Assembly: GCA_030039095.1 (NCBI GenBank)
Contig: JASHQP010000696.1
Location: 1 to 19,130 of the forward strand
DNA: 19,130 nt
Reading direction: 5' to 3'
Source: Streptosporangiaceae bacterium
GTDB taxonomy: Bacteria > Actinomycetota > Actinomycetes > Streptosporangiales > Streptosporangiaceae
Shown: piece after piece, positions 3,405-14,516 of the stretch
Layout: each line of letters starts with the position of its first letter
Position numbering within the stretch: position 1 is the first letter of the stretch
The notes under the pieces: generated by a model
What the model was told of the DNA's origin: nothing
The model's database searches: none
Seen by the model: only the letters and a program-made list of their open reading frames with translations
Made by a program: the position numbers and the translations under genes

Positions 3405-5756
3405 TCATTGACGGTCCCTGCGGCCGGCAAGCCTGCGCATGGCCCGCTCCATCGCGCTGCCGAACGGGTTGTCCTGCACCACGTATGTCCAGGTCGCGGT
3501 CGGGCGCGCGAGCCCGGCGGCGTCGAGGTCGACGCCCGCCGAGGTGATCGGTGCCGTGCGGAACGTCTCGGCGGACTCGTCCTGGACCCGGTCGAGCAGG
3601 CTGGTGAACAGCTTTACCGCCTCGGTCTGGAAGTCGCCCAGCGGGTCACGGCCCCCGCCCAGCGCGCCGGTGCCGAGCGCGCGCAGGTGGATGCCCTCGC
3701 GGATACCGGCGAGCTCGGCCAGGTGGTCGGCCCAGCCGCGGTCGAGGTGGTAGAGCACGATCGTCCGCGCCGCGGCGGTGAGCACGTCCTCGTCGACCGT
3801 CGCGGACAGCTCCTCGAACCGCTCCGGGCGGCGGGTGCCGAGCGCGACCAGGGCCGCGTCGCCGCGCATCAGCCGGTCCCGGTGCTCGAGCACGATCTCG
3901 CGCTGCTTCTCGATCAGCTCGTGGTAGCGGTAGGTGTTGCGGTGGATCTCCAGGTTCGCGCCGTCAGCGACCCGCTGCGCGTGTGCCACCGCCTCGGCCG
4001 CCTTCGCGTCGCGGACCCGGCCGTCGGCGGCCACGTCGCGCGGGGCCGGCGTGTCCGGAGCGTAGCTGGTGATCAGCTCGTCCTCCATCGAGACGAAGAA
4101 CACCGAGTCGCCGGGATCCCCCTGGCGCCCGGACCGGCCGCGCAGCTGGTTGTCGAGCCGGCTGCTCGCATGCCGTCCGGTTCCGATGACGTACAGCCCG
4201 CCGAGCTCGGCCACCCGGTCGTGCTCGGCCGCGACATCGGTACCTCCCCCGCCCGCGCCGCCGTTCCCGCCCCCGGCACCCTTGCCGCTGCCGCCGAGCC
4301 GGATGTCCGTGCCCCGCCCGGCCATCTGCGTGGACACGGTGATCGCGCCGTACGCCCCGGCCTCGGCGACGATCGCCGCCTCGTGCGCGTCGTTCTTGGC
4401 GTTGAGCACGACGTGATCCAGCCCGGCGGCGGTGAGGCGGCGCGACAGCCGTTCCGACTCGGCGATGTCCAGGGTGCCGATCAGGACCGGCTGCCCGGTC
4501 GCATTGGCCCCGGCGATCTCGGCGACGATCGCCTTCTCCTTCTGGCCCATGGTCGCGTACAGGCGGTCCGGCTCGTCCACGCGCACGCACGGCTTGTTCG
4601 GCGGGATCACCGCGACCTCGAGCCCGTAGAACTGGCGGAGCTGGTCGCCGACGGTGACGGCCGTCCCGGTCATCCCGCACACCCGCGGGTAGCGCCGGAC
4701 CAGCGACTCGACAGTGATGCTGTCCAGGATCTCGCCGCTCTCGCTGGCCGCGATGCCCTCCTTGGCCTCGACCGCGGCCTGCAGCCCGTCCGGCCAGCGC
4801 TGCAGCTCGGCCACCCGGCCGCGGGAGGCGCTGATCAGCCGCACCCGGCCGTCGCGGATGATGTAGTCGACATCGCGGCGCAGCAGCGCGTGCGCGTGCA
4901 GCGCCACGTTGAGCCTGGTCAGCGCGTCGATCTGGTCGGCGGCGTACAGGTCGATGCCGCCCAGGGCCTGCTCGGCCGCGCGGGCACCGTCATCGGTGAG
5001 CGTCGCGTTACGGCCGTTGTCGTCGGTCTCGTAGTGCAGGCCCGGCCGCAGCGCGCGCACGACCTCCGCCATCTCCAGGTCGGCGTCGGTCCCGGCCGTG
5101 GCGCCGGCCAGCACCAGCGGCACCAGCGCCTCGTCGATCAGCACCGAGTCGGCCTCGTCGATCAGCAGCACGTCGGGCTGAGCGGCGACCAGGTCGTCGG
5201 GGTCGGTGACCAGCCGGTCGCGCAGCACGTCGAACCCGATCTCGCTGATCGGCGCGTAGGTCACCTGCGCGTCGTACGCGTCCCGCCGCTGCTGCGGCGT
5301 CGACGCCGCCGTGATGTGGCCGGCGGTGACGCCGAGCAGGTCGTACAGCGGCCGCATCCACTCGGCGTCCCGCTGGGCCAGGTAGTCGTTGACGGACGCG
5401 ACCTGCACCGACCGCCCGGCCAGCGCGTACCGGGCGGCCGCGAGCGCGCCGGCCAGGGTCTTGCCCTCGCCGGTGGCCATCTCCGCGATCTGGCCCTGCA
5501 GCATCGCCAGCGTGCCGATGAGCTGCACGTCGAAGGGGCGCTCGCCCAGCGCCCGCCGCGCGGCCTCCCGCCCGATTGCGCAGAACTCGCCGTCGTCACG
5601 GGCATCTCGTGCCAGGACCCGGAACGCGTCGTCCCCCGCGTCGCCAAGCTCCGCTTCGCGCGCCTCGATCGCGGGGAGCAACCGCTGGTAGCGGGCCAGG
5701 TCGGCGCTGCCGGGCTGCTGCAGCAGCCGCCGGAAGCGGGCGCCGAACGTGCTCAT
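3405..5756 (-). CDS. secA2: Accessory preprotein translocase ATPase SecA2
   Basis: A 783-residue SecA-family motor ATPase, which would drive proteins through SecYEG at the membrane. Visible motifs are Walker A MATGEGKT (93-100), DEAD-type Walker B LLIDEAD (197-203), GMTGTA (361-366), TQMAGRGTDIRLGG (476-489) and the DNQLRGRSGRQGDPG block (535-549). The C-terminal helical scaffold is present (WADHLAELAGIREGIHLRAL, then DPLGDFQTEAVKLFTSLLDR). Canonical actinobacterial SecA1 is about 900 or more residues and ends in a linker and a zinc-binding Cys-rich tail. This protein is shorter and ends in MERAMRRLAGRRDRQ with no cysteines, which fits SecA2. A Gly-rich loop (about 488-506) interrupts the region after motif TDIRLGG. 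ATG 5756 lies 15 bp after the pgm stop with only a weak Shine-Dalgarno, suggesting translational coupling. Substrates cannot be read from the sequence. Confidence 0.9.
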   Translation of the reverse strand: MSTFGARFRRLLQQPGSADLARYQRLLPAIEAREAELGDAGDDAFRVLARDARDDGEFCAIGREAARRALGERPFDVQLIGTLAMLQGQIAEMATGEGKTLAGALAAARYALAGRSVQVASVNDYLAQRDAEWMRPLYDLLGVTAGHITAASTPQQRRDAYDAQVTYAPISEIGFDVLRDRLVTDPDDLVAAQPDVLLIDEADSVLIDEALVPLVLAGATAGTDADLEMAEVVRALRPGLHYETDDNGRNATLTDDGARAAEQALGGIDLYAADQIDALTRLNVALHAHALLRRDVDYIIRDGRVRLISASRGRVAELQRWPDGLQAAVEAKEGIAASESGEILDSITVESLVRRYPRVCGMTGTAVTVGDQLRQFYGLEVAVIPPNKPCVRVDEPDRLYATMGQKEKAIVAEIAGANATGQPVLIGTLDIAESERLSRRLTAAGLDHVVLNAKNDAHEAAIVAEAGAYGAITVSTQMAGRGTDIRLGGSGKGAGGGNGGAGGGGTDVAAEHDRVAELGGLYVIGTGRHASSRLDNQLRGRSGRQGDPGDSVFFVSMEDELITSYAPDTPAPRDVAADGRVRDAKAAEAVAHAQRVADGANLEIHRNTYRYHELIEKQREIVLEHRDRLMRGDAALVALGTRRPERFEELSATVDEDVLTAAARTIVLYHLDRGWADHLAELAGIREGIHLRALGTGALGGGRDPLGDFQTEAVKLFTSLLDRVQDESAETFRTAPITSAGVDLDAAGLARPTATWTYVVQDNPFGSAMERAMRRLAGRRDRQ

Positions 5757-7538: not shown

Positions 7539-7898
7539 TTACCTGAAGGGCCGCCACCAGTTACGCGGGCAGTCGTTGATCTCGGCAAGGCCGAGCAGCC
7601 TGTCGAGGGCAAGCAGCGTCGAATCCACCAGCGGCCACGCCTCGACGTCAAGGGGGTGAACAGCCGTGATCATCTCCATTCTCACCCTTGACTCCGAGAT
7701 CGTCTCCAGGTGAAGTTCGATCCCGTTCGCCTCGGCCACCTCGTCCTGAACCCTCCGCAGATCCTCCGGGCTTACCGGACCAGCCAGCCTCAGTTGCCAC
7801 GAGGCATGCCAGTGCCCTTCTTCGCCCTCAACCTCTGGTGGGCGGATGGGCTTGATAAGGCTCGAATCATAGGAATGCGGATCCGCCGGCGGCGTCAT
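7539..7898 (-). CDS. Putative immunity protein for the Rhs toxin
   Basis: A 119-residue soluble, acidic protein with no signal peptide or membrane helix. Its family is not recognised. It looks like an alternating alpha/beta domain: strand WHASWQLRLAG, a helix SPEDLRRVQDEVAEANG, strands IELHLETI and RVRMEMIT, then a long C-terminal helix WPLVDSTLLALDRLLGLAEI and a Trp-containing tail NWWRPFR. Assignment as immunity rests on position: the ATG at 7898 overlaps the Rhs stop codon (ATGA, 4 bp), the standard coupling of polymorphic toxin and antidote. An in-frame GTG at 7916 is an alternative start that would lengthen the overlap. It must protect the cytosol from the C-terminal domain encoded just upstream if the toxin model is right. 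Nothing else in the sequence reveals a catalytic role. Confidence 0.75.
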   Translation of the reverse strand: MTPPADPHSYDSSLIKPIRPPEVEGEEGHWHASWQLRLAGPVSPEDLRRVQDEVAEANGIELHLETISESRVRMEMITAVHPLDVEAWPLVDSTLLALDRLLGLAEINDCPRNWWRPFR

Positions 7899-10800
7899 GG
7901 CTTGATGATCTCCCACTTTGCAGTCTGATTGATGCGCTCGAACGCCCCCGGCCTGAACACCGTCTCGGGCACCCTGACTCCCGGGATCGGATCGGTCCTG
8001 ACGAGGCCCGCGCCCTCGAGTTGCCGCATAACCGAGACGGGGAGGTAACAGATAAGCACCACGACTTGTCCCGTCTTTCCCGCACGGAGCCCCATCTCGT
8101 AAGCGAGCTGGATACCCTCGGTGTCCGCCGGCGTTACCTCGAAGGTGAAGAACGATCCCGGCTCGCTGAATCTGCCGCCCCTGGACGCGGCCCTGGCCTT
8201 GGCCTCGTTGAGCCCGTCACTCACGATACTCTGGGCGTTTTCCAGGGTGGTTCCGTGGGCGAAGTCACGGGTTCGGGGTTCTTCTGGCTCGACCACTTTG
8301 CCGAGGATGTGAATGAGTCGCACCAACGCCATGATTGCCAGGGCGAGCTCGATAATGTCCAGGGCCACTTCGATGACCGCCAGGGCCGCGAGGATAACCT
8401 CCGGCGCGAGCAGCGCTACCGCCAGTGCGACGACTGCGCCAACGATGCCGTCGATCAGCGGGTGGGTCGCGATCTCGTGGCGGGCTGCATCGAAATAGTG
8501 CGCGGCATCGTGCCGGGCGATGTCCCCAATGTGCGCGGCATCGTGGCGGAGGATGTCGCCGATATGCGCGGCATCGTGGCGGAGGGTGTCGCCAAGGTGC
8601 GCGGCTTCGTGCCGGGCGGCGTCGAAGCCGCTGGCGATGTGGTGGAGTTCGCCGCAGCCGACCGGGAGGAAGCAGGTGCCGCGGGGGTCGGTGTTGTTGA
8701 CGGGGTCGTTGCCGGCGTAGGCGTATGGGTTGACCGGCTGTCTCGGCGAGAGGGGGGCGGGGTCGCGGGTGGTGAACCGGCCGAGGGAGGTGTCGTAGCT
8801 GCGGGCGCGCAGGAAGATCATGTCCCGCAGCGTCAGCTCGCCCTGGAATCCGAACCTGGGCAGATCGGGAGCCCGGCGGCCGGCTCGGCCCGCGCGCTGG
8901 ACGCCTTCGGGCTCGCCGAATGGGCTGTAACGGTCGGCCAGCGCCCAGGCGGCCGTCTCCTCGGTCCGCACCGCCGATCCGGACCAGTCGAGGTGGAAGG
9001 CTTCGGCGCCGTCCGGCCAGCTGGCGAAGGTCCGCTCATACCCGTAGCTGAAGTCGGCGCTGAGCCGGCCGGCCAGGTCGTCCTCGGCGTCGTCCAGGTG
9101 CGGCTCGGCGCGCTGGGACAGGATCTGCGGCAGCGCGTCGGTCGCGGTCCACCGGTACTGGACCGAGGCCGTGTGTTCTTCGCCGCGCCGGTCGCCGGCG
9201 GTGAGGACCAGCGAGGCGGGCAGGCCGTCTCCGGTGAACGCGGCCCGGATGCGCTCGTCGCCGTCCGGTGAGCTCACGGTGACCTGGACCGGGCGTCCCA
9301 GCCCGTCGTAGCGGATGACGCGCCGGCGGCCACCCTCGGTTTCCTCGACGAGCCGGCCGGACGGGTCGTAGCGGTACTCGGCCCGTCGGCCGCTGGTCTC
9401 GGCTGCGAGCAGCTGATCCGCCTCGTCGTAGTGGAAGTGCGTCTCGGTGCCGCCGCGGCGCAGGCTGGCCCGGTTGCCGGCCGCGTCATAGCCGATGTGC
9501 ACCGCTCTGTCCTCACGTCTGTCCTCGGGGCGCGGCCCGGGCCTCGCGCCGGCCGTGGGCCGTTCCGCCGCGTGGGTGACGGTGTAGACGAGCTGCCCGG
9601 TCCGGTCGTAGCGGTATTCCCGGGTTCCGTCGCTGTTGCGCTGGGTCAGGATCCGGCCGTCGGGGTCGCGGGTGAACGAGGTGTCGGTGACCGGGTGCCC
9701 GTCGCGGATGACCACGAACCTGTGCAGCAGGCCCCCGTCGTAGTGGTAACGGCGCGCCAGCCTGCCGGGCAGTTGCTCGGTCAGCAGAAGCCCGTCCGGA
9801 TCCAGCGCGTAGGCCGCGTCCCCGGCGCGGGAGTCCTGCAGGCCGGTCAGCCGGCCGTTGGGATCGTAGGTGAAGCTGACCCGCAGGCCGCTGGGGTAGC
9901 CCAGGCTGATCGTCTGCCCGGCCGCGTCGTACGCGGCGGTGAGCACCGTCCCGTCTGGTGCGGTCTCGCTCACCAGGTGCCCGGCCGCGTCGTAGGAGTA
10001 GCGGGTGGTGCCGGTCTCGTCGGTCATGGTGAGCCGTCGTCCCGCCGCGTCGTAGCTGAACGCGACCTCGGTGCCGTCGTCGGCGGTGTGCTGGGTCAGC
10101 CGCCCGTCCGGGTCGTAGGACAGGTGCTGCACGTGACCGGCCGGGCCGGTGATCTCGACCAGGTTCCCAGCCGCGTCGTAGGCGCTGCTGGTTACCCGGC
10201 CGAGCGGGTCGGTGACCGAGATCTCGTGTCCGGCGGCGTCGTACGCGTAACGGGTGACCGCGTCCTTGGGGCCGGTCACCATGACCAGGTTCCCGTTCTG
10301 GTCGTAGCCATAGCCGGTGACCGACCCGTTGGCGTCGGTCACCGCGGTGAGCTGCCCCGCGGCGTCGTAACCGAACTGCGTCACCGCGCCGCCGGGGCTG
10401 ATCACCCGGGTCCCCTGCCCCCGGGCGTTGTAGGCGTACTGGGTGATCCAGCCCCGCGGGCCGACGATGGCGGTCTGCTGGCCCGCCGGGTCGTATTGAT
10501 ACCTGGTCAGCAGGCCGCCCGGGGACACCTCGGATATCCGGTGGCCGTCGGAGTCGTAGGCGTAGCCGGTGACACCGCCGGCCGGGTTCGTGGTCTCTGT
10601 GAGCTGCCCGGCCTTGTCGTAAGTGTGGGCAGTCTTGCGGCCGAGCGGGTCGATCTCGGCCGCAAGCCGGCCTCCCGGCGTCCACTGATACGTGGTGACG
10701 TTGCCGAGCGGGTCGGTTTCCGTGATGCGGTTGCCGGCCTGGTCGTAGCCGTATCGCCATAGTTCGCCGCCGGGATCGGTGCGGGTGGTGACCTGGTCTG

Positions 10801-12625
10801 CGGCGTCGTACTCATACCGGGAAACGCCGCCGGCAGGGTCGGTCACCTCGACCGGGTTGCCGCGGGCGTCATAGCTGGTGTGGGTGGTCCCGGAGGGCGT
10901 CTGCATCGCGGTCTGGTTGCCGGCGGGGTCGTAGGTATAGCTGGTGACCGCGCCGACCGGGCTGGTGACGCTGGTCAGCCGGCCGAGCTGGTCGTAGGCG
11001 TGGCGAGTAACCCCGCCCGCCGGGTCGGTGGCCGTGACGCGCCGGCCCTCGCTGTCATATCCGTAGCTGGTGGTCCGGCCGAGCGGGTCGGTGACGCTGG
11101 TCTGGTTCCCGGCCGTGTCGTAGCCGTAGGTCGTGGACGCTCCCGTCGGTTCCGTGACAGCCTGCAGCCGCCCCGCCGCGGAGTACTGATAGCTGGTCAC
11201 CTCGCCGTCGGGGTTTGTGACCGCGGTGATGCGCCCCGCCGCGTCATGGGCCCATCGAGTGGTCGCCCCGGACGGCGCGACCTGCTCGACGCGCCGCCCC
11301 GCCGCGTCGTAAACGTAGCGGGTCACTTCGCCCAGCGGGTTCGTCACGGCCACCAGTTCGCCCGCGGCATTGTAGGTGTAGGTGGTGGTCCCGCCGTCCG
11401 GGTCGGTCCGGCTGGTGACCTGTCCGTCGGCTTGCGCCAGCTGCGTCGTGCCCCCGGTTGGGCTCGTGACCGTCGAAGGGATCCGGCTGTCCTCGGGGTA
11501 GGCGAAGCTGATCGCCCCGCCCAAAGGGCCGGTGACCGTGGCAATGCGGCCCGCGCCGTCGAAGACCGAGGTCGTGGTGGCCCCGCCGTAGCTGCTGGAG
11601 GTCACGTGACCGGCAGCATCGTAGCCCTGGGCCAGGACGGTGCCGCCGGGCCCGACCGCCTCGGTCAGCCGGCCGTCGGCGCCGAAAGCGAACGTGGCGG
11701 CGTTGCCGCCCGGGTCGGTGACCTTGACCATGCGCCCCGACGGGTCGGCCTGGAACACCATCTGCCCGCCCGGGACGGTCACTGTCGTGGCCCCGGTGTC
11801 GTCGCCATAGCCGAAGCCCACCTCGGCGCCGGCCGGCAGCACCTGCTGCCTGACACGCCCTCGGTCGTCGTAGGAGTTCGTGACGAGCAGAACGCCGTCG
11901 GCATCGGTGATCTGGCCGACCTGCCCCCCGGACGCGGCCGCGAAGCGGGTCACCGCCCCGCCTGGAAGCGTCACCGACTCCAGCAGCCCGCCCGCGGTGT
12001 AAGCGTAGGCAACGGTGCGGCCGTCGCTGACGGCCGCGCTGGCGAGCCGGCCGGCCGGATCATAGGAGAAGGACAGCTGCCTGCCCGACGAGTGCGCGGC
12101 CGTCACCAGTTCCCCGGCGGCGTTATACCCGAGCGTTACCTGCTGCCCGGCCTGCTGTCGCTGGGTCAGTCGGCCGGAGGGGTCGAACGCCCACACCTCG
12201 CCGGAGTTGAAGGTGAGCGTGAAGCTCCCGTCCGCCGCCCGCAGAAGGCTGGCGTCGAGGTCCTGCGGAGAGGTGAACCCGCCATCCGCGGCCGGGCTGA
12301 ACGGCAGCACCCGGCCGTCGTCGTCGAAGAACGTCACCGGCCCCGCCGTGTGATGGAGCAGGCCCTGCCCGGGGCTGGCCTGCAGGCGCGAGCTTAACGA
12401 GGTGGTCCAGCCCTGCCCCAGCGCTCCGGCTGCGGTGCTGAGCGAGTTGTAGGTGCGCTGCCAGCTGAGCAGACCCAGCTCGCTGCCGGGAAACGGCAGG
12501 TCGGTGGCGGTGGTCGTGTAGTTGCCGATCGCCGTGCTGACCCCCGACCCGGCGAATCCGTACCCCGGGTGACGACCGAATATCTCAGCTGGCGCCCGCG
12601 TGATGAAATCCCCGTTCGATGGCAT
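7895..12625 (-). CDS. Rhs/YD-repeat polymorphic toxin
   Basis: A 1,576-residue protein. Residues about 33-105 (GVSTAIGNYTTTATDLPFPG, WQRTYNS) match the DUF6531 N-terminal domain. From about 146 to 1110 there are dozens of YD repeats of the form G-x4-Y-x-YD-xx-G-R-x, which fold into the Rhs cocoon. The conserved Rhs-core end lies at about 1269-1316 (RARSYDTSLGRF, TRDPAPLSP, PYAYAGNDPVNNTDPRG), a region linked to self-cleavage in other Rhs proteins. Beyond it come five 11-residue repeats (1334-1388), a hydrophobic double segment (about 1390-1442) and the C-terminal effector domain (about 1450-1576). There is no signal peptide, PAAR domain or recognisable WXG/LXG module, so the export route is unclear. 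ATG 12625 is preceded by GAAAGG about 10 nt upstream. A 4-bp overlap couples it to the downstream immunity gene. Confidence 0.93.
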   Translation of the reverse strand: MPSNGDFITRAPAEIFGRHPGYGFAGSGVSTAIGNYTTTATDLPFPGSELGLLSWQRTYNSLSTAAGALGQGWTTSLSSRLQASPGQGLLHHTAGPVTFFDDDGRVLPFSPAADGGFTSPQDLDASLLRAADGSFTLTFNSGEVWAFDPSGRLTQRQQAGQQVTLGYNAAGELVTAAHSSGRQLSFSYDPAGRLASAAVSDGRTVAYAYTAGGLLESVTLPGGAVTRFAAASGGQVGQITDADGVLLVTNSYDDRGRVRQQVLPAGAEVGFGYGDDTGATTVTVPGGQMVFQADPSGRMVKVTDPGGNAATFAFGADGRLTEAVGPGGTVLAQGYDAAGHVTSSSYGGATTTSVFDGAGRIATVTGPLGGAISFAYPEDSRIPSTVTSPTGGTTQLAQADGQVTSRTDPDGGTTTYTYNAAGELVAVTNPLGEVTRYVYDAAGRRVEQVAPSGATTRWAHDAAGRITAVTNPDGEVTSYQYSAAGRLQAVTEPTGASTTYGYDTAGNQTSVTDPLGRTTSYGYDSEGRRVTATDPAGGVTRHAYDQLGRLTSVTSPVGAVTSYTYDPAGNQTAMQTPSGTTHTSYDARGNPVEVTDPAGGVSRYEYDAADQVTTRTDPGGELWRYGYDQAGNRITETDPLGNVTTYQWTPGGRLAAEIDPLGRKTAHTYDKAGQLTETTNPAGGVTGYAYDSDGHRISEVSPGGLLTRYQYDPAGQQTAIVGPRGWITQYAYNARGQGTRVISPGGAVTQFGYDAAGQLTAVTDANGSVTGYGYDQNGNLVMVTGPKDAVTRYAYDAAGHEISVTDPLGRVTSSAYDAAGNLVEITGPAGHVQHLSYDPDGRLTQHTADDGTEVAFSYDAAGRRLTMTDETGTTRYSYDAAGHLVSETAPDGTVLTAAYDAAGQTISLGYPSGLRVSFTYDPNGRLTGLQDSRAGDAAYALDPDGLLLTEQLPGRLARRYHYDGGLLHRFVVIRDGHPVTDTSFTRDPDGRILTQRNSDGTREYRYDRTGQLVYTVTHAAERPTAGARPGPRPEDRREDRAVHIGYDAAGNRASLRRGGTETHFHYDEADQLLAAETSGRRAEYRYDPSGRLVEETEGGRRRVIRYDGLGRPVQVTVSSPDGDERIRAAFTGDGLPASLVLTAGDRRGEEHTASVQYRWTATDALPQILSQRAEPHLDDAEDDLAGRLSADFSYGYERTFASWPDGAEAFHLDWSGSAVRTEETAAWALADRYSPFGEPEGVQRAGRAGRRAPDLPRFGFQGELTLRDMIFLRARSYDTSLGRFTTRDPAPLSPRQPVNPYAYAGNDPVNNTDPRGTCFLPVGCGELHHIASGFDAARHEAAHLGDTLRHDAAHIGDILRHDAAHIGDIARHDAAHYFDAARHEIATHPLIDGIVGAVVALAVALLAPEVILAALAVIEVALDIIELALAIMALVRLIHILGKVVEPEEPRTRDFAHGTTLENAQSIVSDGLNEAKARAASRGGRFSEPGSFFTFEVTPADTEGIQLAYEMGLRAGKTGQVVVLICYLPVSVMRQLEGAGLVRTDPIPGVRVPETVFRPGAFERINQTAKWEIIKP
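7898..8280 (-). other. C-terminal effector domain of the Rhs toxin, ADP-ribosyltransferase-like
   Basis: Residues about 1450-1576 of the Rhs protein. The domain opens with FAHGTTLENAQSIVSDGLN, similar to the Y/F-x-HGT...A..I...G(L/I) start of ART-fold enzymes (H1457). SFFTFEV around 1491-1497 would be the second strand bearing the aromatic, and VVVLICYLP a core strand. PETVF with E1554 would supply the acidic residue, and FRPGAFERI resembles the common ART ending. On this reading it would transfer ADP-ribose from NAD to a target. This is motif inference only; a different small-molecule or nuclease fold is possible. Confidence 0.45.
8300..8458 (-). other. Hydrophobic double segment in the Rhs toxin
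   Basis: Residues about 1390-1442 are strongly hydrophobic with a PE break (IVGAVVALAVALLAPEVILA) followed by ALDIIELALAIMALVRLIHI. They could form two membrane-spanning helices or a buried helical hairpin. The acidic residues in the second half argue for a hairpin or pore-like insertion rather than a simple anchor. Confidence 0.7.
8462..8626 (-). repeat. Five tandem 33-bp units encoding 11-residue repeats
   Basis: Residues 1334-1388 of the Rhs toxin consist of five consecutive 11-mers: FDAARHEAAHL, GDTLRHDAAHI, GDILRHDAAHI, GDIARHDAAHY and FDAARHEIATH. The DNA units are nearly identical in the middle copies, so recent tandem duplication is likely. Eleven residues equal three helical turns, so the stretch should form an amphipathic hendecad helix with regularly placed His, Asp and Arg. 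Confidence 0.9.
9300..12190 (-). repeat. Rhs/YD-repeat array
   Basis: The DNA encodes dozens of imperfect repeats of about 60-66 bp carrying the YDxxG core (plus strand cgtcgtay-type blocks recur at regular spacing, for example around 9900, 9980, 10050, 10110, 10170 and 10230). These correspond to Rhs residues about 146-1110. Repeat homogeneity makes the region prone to recombination. It also creates several long false open frames on the plus strand. Confidence 0.9.
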
Positions 12626-12872: not shown

Positions 12873-14516
12873 CTAGGTGATCGGGGGGAGTGACTGGCCG
12901 GGGCCGAGAACGGTGCGGAACGGGTCGCCGCGCTCGGCCAGCCGGTCGAACACCGTGCGGATCGTGAACCCGTCCGGCCGCAGCGACGGGTCGTCCAGCT
13001 CGGCCCATGCGATCGGCACGGAGACCGGCGCCCCCGGCGCCGGGCGCGGGCTGTACGGCGCGACCAGCGTCTTGTTCTTGACGTTCTGCGTGTAGTCGAG
13101 CCGGGCACGGCCCTGCCGCTTGCCCACGTCCCACTGCCAGCTGACCATGTCCGGCACGACCGCGCCGACGGCCTTGGACAGCTGCTCCACCCACTTGCGG
13201 GTGTCCTCGTAGGTGGGGCCACGGCTGATCGGCACCCAGATCTGGATGCCGGTGTGCCCGGTCACCTTGGGCTGCGCCCGCACGCCCAGATGCTCGAGGG
13301 CGGTTCGGTGCAGCCGGGCCAGCACCAGGACGTCCTCCCATGACGTATCCGCGCCGGCGTCGATGTCGATGAGCGCGTACGTGGGCAGCCGCGGCTCGTC
13401 GATGCGCGCGGTCCACGCGTGCCACTCCAGCGCGCCGAAGTTCGCCGCCCACACCAGCGCGGCGGGCTCGTCCACGACCAGGTACGTGGTGGCGTCGCCG
13501 CGGTCGGCGTTTGGGTTGTTCCAGCGCGGTATCCAGTCCGGGGCGTGCTCGGGAAGCTGCTTGTGCCAGAACCCCCTGGTCTGCGCGCCCCCGGGGAACC
13601 GGTGCATGTTCAGCGCGCGGCCCTCGGTGTAGGGCAGGATCACCGGCGCGATCCTGGCCGCGTAGCGGATGAACTCGCGCTTGGTCACCGGCGGCTCGCC
13701 GTCCCGGCCGGGGAACATCTCCTTGTCCAGGTTCGTGACCTTGAGCCGCTGCCCGAACACCTCCCAGGTGCCCTCGTGGCCAAGTGCGTCGAGGGCATCC
13801 AGCTCGCGGCGGCTCGGCCCGCCGGCCAGCAGGCCGGCCGGCGGGGTGTCCGGGGTGTCGCCGATCGGCACCGACGCCTCGCCCGGCGGCAGGTCGGAAC
13901 GCCACATCCGGTGCGGGTCGGCCTTGACCTCGTCGTTGGTGCGCCCGCTCAGCACCGACCGGGGGTAGTCCTCCGGATCCCAGCCCGCAACGGCGTCCTC
14001 GTCGTGCTTGTGCAGCAGCAGCCACTGGCTCTCGTCGTCGCGGCCGTGGCCGGTCTGCACGAGGATGAAGCGCCCGCGCAGCTTCTGCCCGGACACGTCG
14101 GCGTGCAGTTCGCCCGCGGCGACTGCGGCCGCCGGGTCGTCGGTCTCGTGCGGCTCCCACGTCCCGATGTCCCAGACGATCACGTCGCCGCCGCCGTACT
14201 CGCCGCGCGGGATGATGCCCTCGAACTCCAGGTACTCGATCGGGTGGTCCTCGACGTGCACCGCGATCCGCCGCACGGCGGGGTCGAGCGTCGGCCCCTT
14301 GGGCACCGCCCAGCTCGCCAGCACGCCGTCGATCTCGAACCGCAGGTCATAGTGCAGCCGGCGGGCCCGGTGCCGCTGCACCACGAACCGGCGGCCGGCC
14401 GGATCAGCCTGCGGCGGGGCGCCTTCCGGCTCGGGAGTCCGGCCGAAATCTCGTTTGCGCTGGTACGGAGCCAGCCGGGGATCGCCCTTGCTCGGCTGCT
14501 CGCGGGTACCGGGCAC
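12873..14516 (-). CDS. LigD-like protein: 3'-phosphoesterase plus primase-polymerase domains, no ligase
   Basis: A 547-residue protein of the bacterial non-homologous end-joining family. N-terminal PE domain (about 40-175): QRHRARRLHYDLR supplies H49, H55, D57 and R59, followed by HPIEY (H91, Y95) and IPRGEYGGG. The spacing matches Pseudomonas LigD H42/H48/D50/H84/Y88 as I recall it. C-terminal POL domain of the archaeo-eukaryotic primase type (about 245-540): GRALNMHRFPGG, the metal-binding LIDIDAG (D380, D382), GHTGIQIWVPISRGPTYED, and RLDYTQNVKNKT with a probable third acid D470. The ATP-dependent ligase domain with its KxDG motif is absent, so sealing must be done by another protein. GTG 14516 follows the amidohydrolase stop by 3 bp. 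No Ku gene is in the window. Confidence 0.92.
   Translation of the reverse strand: MPGTREQPSKGDPRLAPYQRKRDFGRTPEPEGAPPQADPAGRRFVVQRHRARRLHYDLRFEIDGVLASWAVPKGPTLDPAVRRIAVHVEDHPIEYLEFEGIIPRGEYGGGDVIVWDIGTWEPHETDDPAAAVAAGELHADVSGQKLRGRFILVQTGHGRDDESQWLLLHKHDEDAVAGWDPEDYPRSVLSGRTNDEVKADPHRMWRSDLPPGEASVPIGDTPDTPPAGLLAGGPSRRELDALDALGHEGTWEVFGQRLKVTNLDKEMFPGRDGEPPVTKREFIRYAARIAPVILPYTEGRALNMHRFPGGAQTRGFWHKQLPEHAPDWIPRWNNPNADRGDATTYLVVDEPAALVWAANFGALEWHAWTARIDEPRLPTYALIDIDAGADTSWEDVLVLARLHRTALEHLGVRAQPKVTGHTGIQIWVPISRGPTYEDTRKWVEQLSKAVGAVVPDMVSWQWDVGKRQGRARLDYTQNVKNKTLVAPYSPRPAPGAPVSVPIAWAELDDPSLRPDGFTIRTVFDRLAERGDPFRTVLGPGQSLPPIT

Follow-up and report, generated by a model that had tools for sequence, protein, structure and literature searches.

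A candidate ADP-ribosyltransferase toxin family at the end of an actinomycete Rhs protein, and its putative partner immunity family

Results

An Rhs protein with a putative ART toxin domain and an overlapping partner gene

We analysed a 19,130-nucleotide contig from a Streptosporangiaceae bacterium (GenBank assembly GCA_030039095.1, contig JASHQP010000696.1; hereafter the window), which carries a gene for an Rhs polymorphic toxin followed by a small open reading frame (ORF). The pair is probably an antibacterial polymorphic-toxin locus, in which the end of the Rhs protein represents a new family of ADP-ribosyltransferase (ART) toxins and the small ORF encodes an immunity protein of its own family that would act by blocking the toxin. 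Judged by the sequence libraries searched (Pfam, NCBIfam and PHROGs), these candidate toxin and immunity families are both new, within a well-known kind of system. No published description of the pair was found by title or abstract opening, subscription papers and preprints lying outside the coverage of that search. Both frames reported by a first-pass annotation of the sequence are real, as is their ATGA overlap. The features on which the argument rests are as follows.

7895 to 12625, minus strand: Rhs polymorphic toxin gene, 1576 amino acids (Pfam RHS_repeat, E 3.2e-178)
7898 to 8275, minus strand: ART-like toxin domain, residues about 1451-1576, ~126 residues
8255 to 8257, minus strand: H1457, strand 1, FAHGT motif; invariant in toxin-domain alignment A4 (12/12)
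8141 to 8155, minus strand: SFFTF, residues 1491-1495, second strand, aromatic triad position
8084 to 8104, minus strand: AYEMGLR, residues 1508-1514, central helix; A, Y, E, L and R invariant in A4
7964 to 7966, minus strand: E1554, start of the ETVF strand, proposed catalytic Glu; 11/12 in A4
7895 to 7898, minus strand: ATGA, overlap of the toxin stop and the small-gene start
7539 to 7898, minus strand: putative immunity gene, 119 amino acids, predicted ferredoxin-like alpha/beta fold (pLDDT 88.1)
7542 to 7568, minus strand: conserved C-terminal tail, partner residues 111-119; P111, W114 and R119 invariant in partner alignment A5

Structure prediction gave a confident model of the C-terminal domain, in which VIA-align recognised the ART fold (a split beta-sandwich), as the first-pass annotation had proposed for the effector; its numbering of H1457, SFFTF (1491-1495) and E1554 is exact. 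In the model, H1457 lies on strand 3-10, S-F-F falls at strand 42-48 and E1554 opens strand 104-107, which reproduces the H-Y-E layout of a His on strand 1, an aromatic residue on strand 2 and a Glu on strand 5, with Phe replacing Tyr. We infer from strand order, rather than from residue-level superposition, that H1457, the SFF strand and E1554 occupy the triad positions of the H-Y-E class. Weighing against the fold, Foldseek alone did not show it for the same model. Across the 12 sequences of A4 the Glu position is the less strictly kept of the two: it is Gln in the relative P0010. By eye, Gln also takes this place in a further relative, locus L019 (1501-1881), which is without the AYE motif as well.

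If the predicted fold and the conserved positions are a guide, H1457, the SFF strand and E1554 would line an ART cleft in which the 126-residue domain binds NAD+, and the domain would transfer ADP-ribose to an essential target, either protein or RNA. The main rival accepts the fold and changes the chemistry: the domain would be an NAD(P) glycohydrolase that kills by draining NAD, with the partner occluding the NAD pocket. The model for this is Tne5 of Pluralibacter gergoviae, an Rhs toxin whose fold is likewise ART-like and which is neutralised through the gene downstream of it. Tne5 is described in excerpts of the source as hydrolysing NAD(P) without protein modification and as having an immunity loop predicted in its cleft (PMC13285283). 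A replaceable Glu would suit an enzyme able to work without the canonical acid. However, the window's family retains the H-Y-E His in 12/12 and the Glu in 11/12 aligned sequences, whereas in Tne5, compared at the level of those excerpts, Lys1392 is the most important residue and the Glu is dispensable. We consider a glycohydrolase unlikely and favour ADP-ribosyl transfer.

ART domains of this class have precedents among polymorphic toxins. Among the toxin ARTs that Zhang et al. (2012) describe in such systems are several families of the H-Y-E clade, some of them actinobacterial, and in the portion of that work used here Tox-ART-PARP is characterised by HG[ST], Y, K and E and is assigned to the PVC system without an immunity protein (PMC3482391). 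Tox-ART-PARP, HYD1, HYD2 and HYE1 resemble the window toxin as polymorphic-toxin ARTs of the H-Y-E clade, a likeness drawn for HYD2, HYE1 and PARP from their descriptions in that portion. Tox-ART-HYD1 (PF15633, paired with Imm-My6CBD) gave no listing for the window domain up to E 10, a range in which few matches above 0.1 pass the HMMER filters; PF15633 does match another place in genome G001.

The partner gene accompanies the toxin domain and diverges with it

Of 13 loci, 12 have a homologue of the partner directly downstream of the toxin domain (the window, L001-L007, L009, L023, L024 and the remnant L025), two of them in decayed form; Nocardia, Streptomyces and a cyanobacterial plasmid are among the sources. 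The co-occurrence in related genomes expected of an immunity gene is thus borne out. The single miss is L019, the most divergent toxin, whose adjoining gene is not matched as a partner homologue (E 0.07). At the junctions, ATGA recurs in eight of the 12 examined, and the remainder are TGATG (L002), GTGA (L019) and gaps of 2 (L004) and 19 (L009).

Because nine of the 12 partner sequences had been seeds of profile A3 (all but L023, L024 and L025), we tested partner homology separately, using a small local database of open frames to which 3,300 shuffled sequences had been added. A profile of the window clade (P0002-P0004, of which P0002 is the window's own partner) recovered seven Nocardia/Streptomyces sequences at E 5.9e-10 to 0.0018 (best shuffle 0.021), and the reverse profile, built from those seven, recovered P0002 at E 2.2e-9 (best shuffle 0.4). 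The partner from Oscillatoria was found with the seven-sequence profile (E 2.5e-8) and not with the window-clade profile (3.7). The partner profile gave a single match per genome at E <= 0.01 in the seven genomes of L001-L007. In a 397-genome sample it found two, namely the known locus and a tail remnant, L027. Further, toxin and partner distances are correlated across 10 loci (Mantel r 0.905, without L007, L019 and L025) and within the eight Nocardia/Streptomyces-type loci (r 0.672); part of this correlation can arise from shared ancestry of the loci alone.

The partner matches no Pfam family at E 10, and among 11 members scanned against Pfam the best E is 0.026, in one member. A profile search of protein databases returned 29 proteins including the window's, none with a precomputed Pfam domain and, where named, all called hypothetical or uncharacterised; nor does the partner model have a close structural relative among the matches listed. 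The first-pass annotation had described the neighbour as belonging to no recognised family, which stands, and the pair as a new combination in an actinomycete; the novelty of the two unnamed families survives, and the pair is not confined to one actinomycete.

We propose that the 119-residue protein would bind to the toxin domain and obstruct the active site there, and that this, rather than removal of the modification, would protect the producing cell and its kin; no ADP-ribosyl-hydrolase appears among the structure matches listed for it. This proposal rests on analogy with RhsP2-RhsI2 and RhsF-RhsFi, in which, according to excerpts of the two reports, the immunity protein occludes the ART active site (PMC13324451, PMC11833690) and the plug of RhsFi is an Arg-Trp pair, R102/W103. 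In the window's partner family, R112, P117 and F118 of the tail are nearly invariant and P-R-x-W is among the best-kept stretches, so that the conserved R-x-W tail is a possible plug of the cleft; we offer its likeness to the Arg-Trp pair as a proposal only. The toxins themselves differ. RhsP2 (Pseudomonas aeruginosa, 7rt7) and RhsF (Chromobacterium violaceum) have an R-Y-E triad in the excerpted text (PMC13324451), whereas the window's family has His on strand 1; neither has a sequence match to the window toxin, and the window shows no N-terminus of the type VI secretion system kind.

Architecture of the Rhs gene

The remainder of the Rhs protein is arranged as follows.

12299 to 12547, minus strand: DUF6531, residues 27-109 (Pfam E 1.4e-16)
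8678 to 8929, minus strand: Rhs-associated core, residues 1233-1316 (TIGR03696 E 4e-14)
8282 to 8677, minus strand: linker of ~132 residues (1317-1448) between core and toxin domain

Pfam recognises 29 stretches of RHS repeats (PF05593) above its limit in the 1576-residue protein. With these repeats, a conserved core end and a C-terminus that is also found on other proteins, the protein has the marks of an Rhs system, albeit with a deviating motif: D1288-PAPL and D1313-PRG-T stand where two DPxGL motifs are canonical. The core reported in the first-pass annotation is therefore confirmed by TIGR03696, and its standard end motif is only near-canonical. The same annotation had described a unique 260-residue extension. 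A C-terminal extension is present, but it comprises two parts, the linker and the toxin domain, and it is not unique, since searches of proteins, plasmids and genome contigs all returned relatives.

The linker consists of RHDAAHIGD-like repeats and then ~60 strongly hydrophobic residues (about 1385-1446), and is proposed to be a translocation or spacer segment. We treat it as separate from the toxin because in P0006 and in the Nocardia locus L003 almost nothing stands between the core and the toxin domain. As a candidate general translocator it was set aside: it had no matches in 240 genomes, a weak negative, obtained with a low-complexity query and no positive control, that shows little. The G+C content falls stepwise from core (0.718) to linker (0.667), toxin domain (0.635) and small gene (0.630), as expected of an exchanged cassette. 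ARAGORN calls a tRNA-Sec within the Rhs repeats (12168-12253, minus strand), which is most likely a false call; Rfam reports nothing there at its gathering scores.

By the precedent of known Rhs proteins, the repeats would form a shell around the C-terminal cargo, and once the chain has been cleaved where the core ends, the hydrophobic linker may help this cargo into the cytosol of a neighbouring cell.

Delivery of the toxin

The N-terminus of the window Rhs has no hydrophobic segment (maximum 19-residue hydropathy 0.39, in windows starting at residues 1-60), and Pfam places no trafficking domain on the protein, whether of the type VII secretion system (T7SS), PAAR or FIX kind. Because of these two results, the first-pass description of the protein as signal-less holds as far as tested. 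The other recognised genes of the window include no dedicated injection apparatus. Elsewhere in the family, T7SS_signal is N-terminal on the same protein in L002, lies on an upstream ORF of the broken locus L007 and is sub-threshold in P0006. DUF6531 is preceded by 26 residues in the window and by about 105-115 in L003, P0008 and P0011.

These observations could be taken to mean that the locus is an orphan, in which the Rhs protein has lost its trafficking domain, the toxin goes undelivered and the pair is kept as an addictive or silent remnant. T7SS_signal on L002 and beside the broken L007 fits such a loss, as do decayed copies at L007, P0011, L025 and L027. L007 has a toxin domain without the HGT part in a broken locus (and is kept in the counts), and L025, from the Nocardia genus sample, retains remains of both genes and enters the counts as a remnant. 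In P0011, the last 130 residues of the Rhs contain a toxin domain that stops after the SFFTHE strand and ends in an immunity-protein-like tail, by eye a candidate natural deletion scar across the toxin-immunity pair. L027 (1207-1617, plus strand) encodes a short protein with a WXG100-like start, by eye, and the immunity tail LPRDWYSPFR at its end; it is apparently the deletion remnant of a T7SS-linked copy. With an immunity tail only, after an unrelated start, and no toxin domain recognised within its 3.1 kb, it was excluded as a toxin locus. Against an orphan locus, however, both frames are intact in the window, and L003, P0008 and P0011 are likewise without a recognised trafficking domain, so that this may be a normal form. 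We regard an orphan as improbable, somewhat more so than the glycohydrolase, and continue to favour a working antibacterial toxin.

A rare domain on several kinds of protein

A protein search with residues 1435-1576 returned six proteins at E <= 0.001 (199 candidates), every one with RHS repeats. Two of the six, P0007 and P0010, also carry PF03534, which we take to be SpvB, and one of these two also carries PF12256, presumably TcdB. Their sources include Corallococcus sp. CA049B, and the toxin domain stands at the end of the PF03534-bearing proteins. A translated scan of 72,556 plasmid records found one relative, which forms the end of an Oscillatoria nigro-viridis protein encoded by a 22-kb gene; the segment preceding the toxin domain is similar to the gene that follows, annotated as encoding a HINT protein. 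On that plasmid (pOSC7112.01, L009, 6001-11504), the toxin end is followed by the partner and then by HINT, AHH and Imm5 cassettes. Genome Taxonomy Database (GTDB) contigs gave no match when scanned with the single toxin sequence and eight loci when scanned with alignment A1. One of the eight, L008 (Thermomicrobium), is a chance match to a short QLAYEFGLR stretch within an unrelated protein and was removed from every count. Viral contigs gave no toxin-domain match.

The toxin family is rare. It occurs in 1/396 genomes sampled from the phylum of G002 (the sole match being the centre genome), in 2/397 from the order of Nocardia fusca (one of them the centre genome) and in 7/148 from the genus of Nocardia fusca (one a remnant and four already known). 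Scoring covered a limited number of candidates in each genome, so these counts are lower bounds.

Rows of toxin and immunity cassettes are a usual layout of inter-bacterial systems. That the domain is instead a warhead against eukaryotes such as soil amoebae, fungi or insects, with the small protein as a chaperone or solubility partner, is suggested by the PF03534-bearing relatives P0007 and P0010, including that of Corallococcus sp. CA049B, but is very unlikely given that the partner adjoins the domain in Nocardia, Streptomyces and the cyanobacterial plasmid and co-diverges with it, and that the Oscillatoria pair precedes a row of toxin/immunity cassettes, one annotated Imm5.

A more specific version of the antibacterial ART toxin is a tentative one: a compact H-F-E ART warhead family, with its ferredoxin-like immunity family, may have moved among at least four chassis and may modify RNA. 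The chassis would, possibly, be plain Rhs proteins, Rhs proteins with T7SS_signal, the cyanobacterial plasmid giant with its HINT-like segment and the SpvB/TcdB-type proteins; with similar hesitation, we suggest that some members have exchanged the catalytic Glu for Gln. RNA modification may hold because of the structural likeness of the toxin to RhsP2 and to the RNA 2'-phosphotransferase Tpt1/KptA. In a profile comparison (hhalign), Tpt1/KptA scored 20.7 at a probability of 3%, marginally above the highest score among 100 column-shuffled controls (20.3) and short of significance; by eye Tpt1/KptA is without a Glu at the third triad position, unlike the window's family.

Other genes of the window

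The remaining genes include those for a LigD-type protein, an amidohydrolase, a short-chain dehydrogenase, a two-component pair, a phosphoglucomutase, SecA2 and a cytochrome P450. The accessory SecA2 (3405-5756, minus strand; TIGR04221, 1033 bits against a cut-off of 725) is of the mycobacterial type and is the second gene after the Rhs-partner pair. Mycobacterial SecA2 exports proteins without signals, and SecA2 was considered as an exporter of the Rhs protein. In the 19.9-kb SecA2 regions of 11 genomes (11 of the 15 best loci, with SecA2 51-58% identical), none of 13 other window proteins, including phosphoglucomutase, LigD and Rhs, was found at E <= 1e-10. Because the neighbourhood is not conserved in these genomes, the idea has no support beyond proximity and was rejected. 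The LigD-type protein (12873-14516, minus strand, 547 amino acids) has phosphoesterase and primase-polymerase domains, and no ligase domain was matched in it. For the cytochrome P450 (2156-3364, minus strand), the nearest NCBIfam model is TxtE, at 130 bits under a cut-off of 500.

Significance

The loci form a natural set of co-diverging pairs, including toxins that are broken or fused to an antidote tail, and therefore make specificity testable, both as to which immunity protein stops which toxin and as to the R-x-W tail as a plug. If the toxin is active, it would be an ART weapon carried on an actinomycete Rhs protein without a recognisable export signal, which raises the question of how it leaves the cell. 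Should RNA prove to be its target, actinomycetes would possess an RNA-directed ART weapon.

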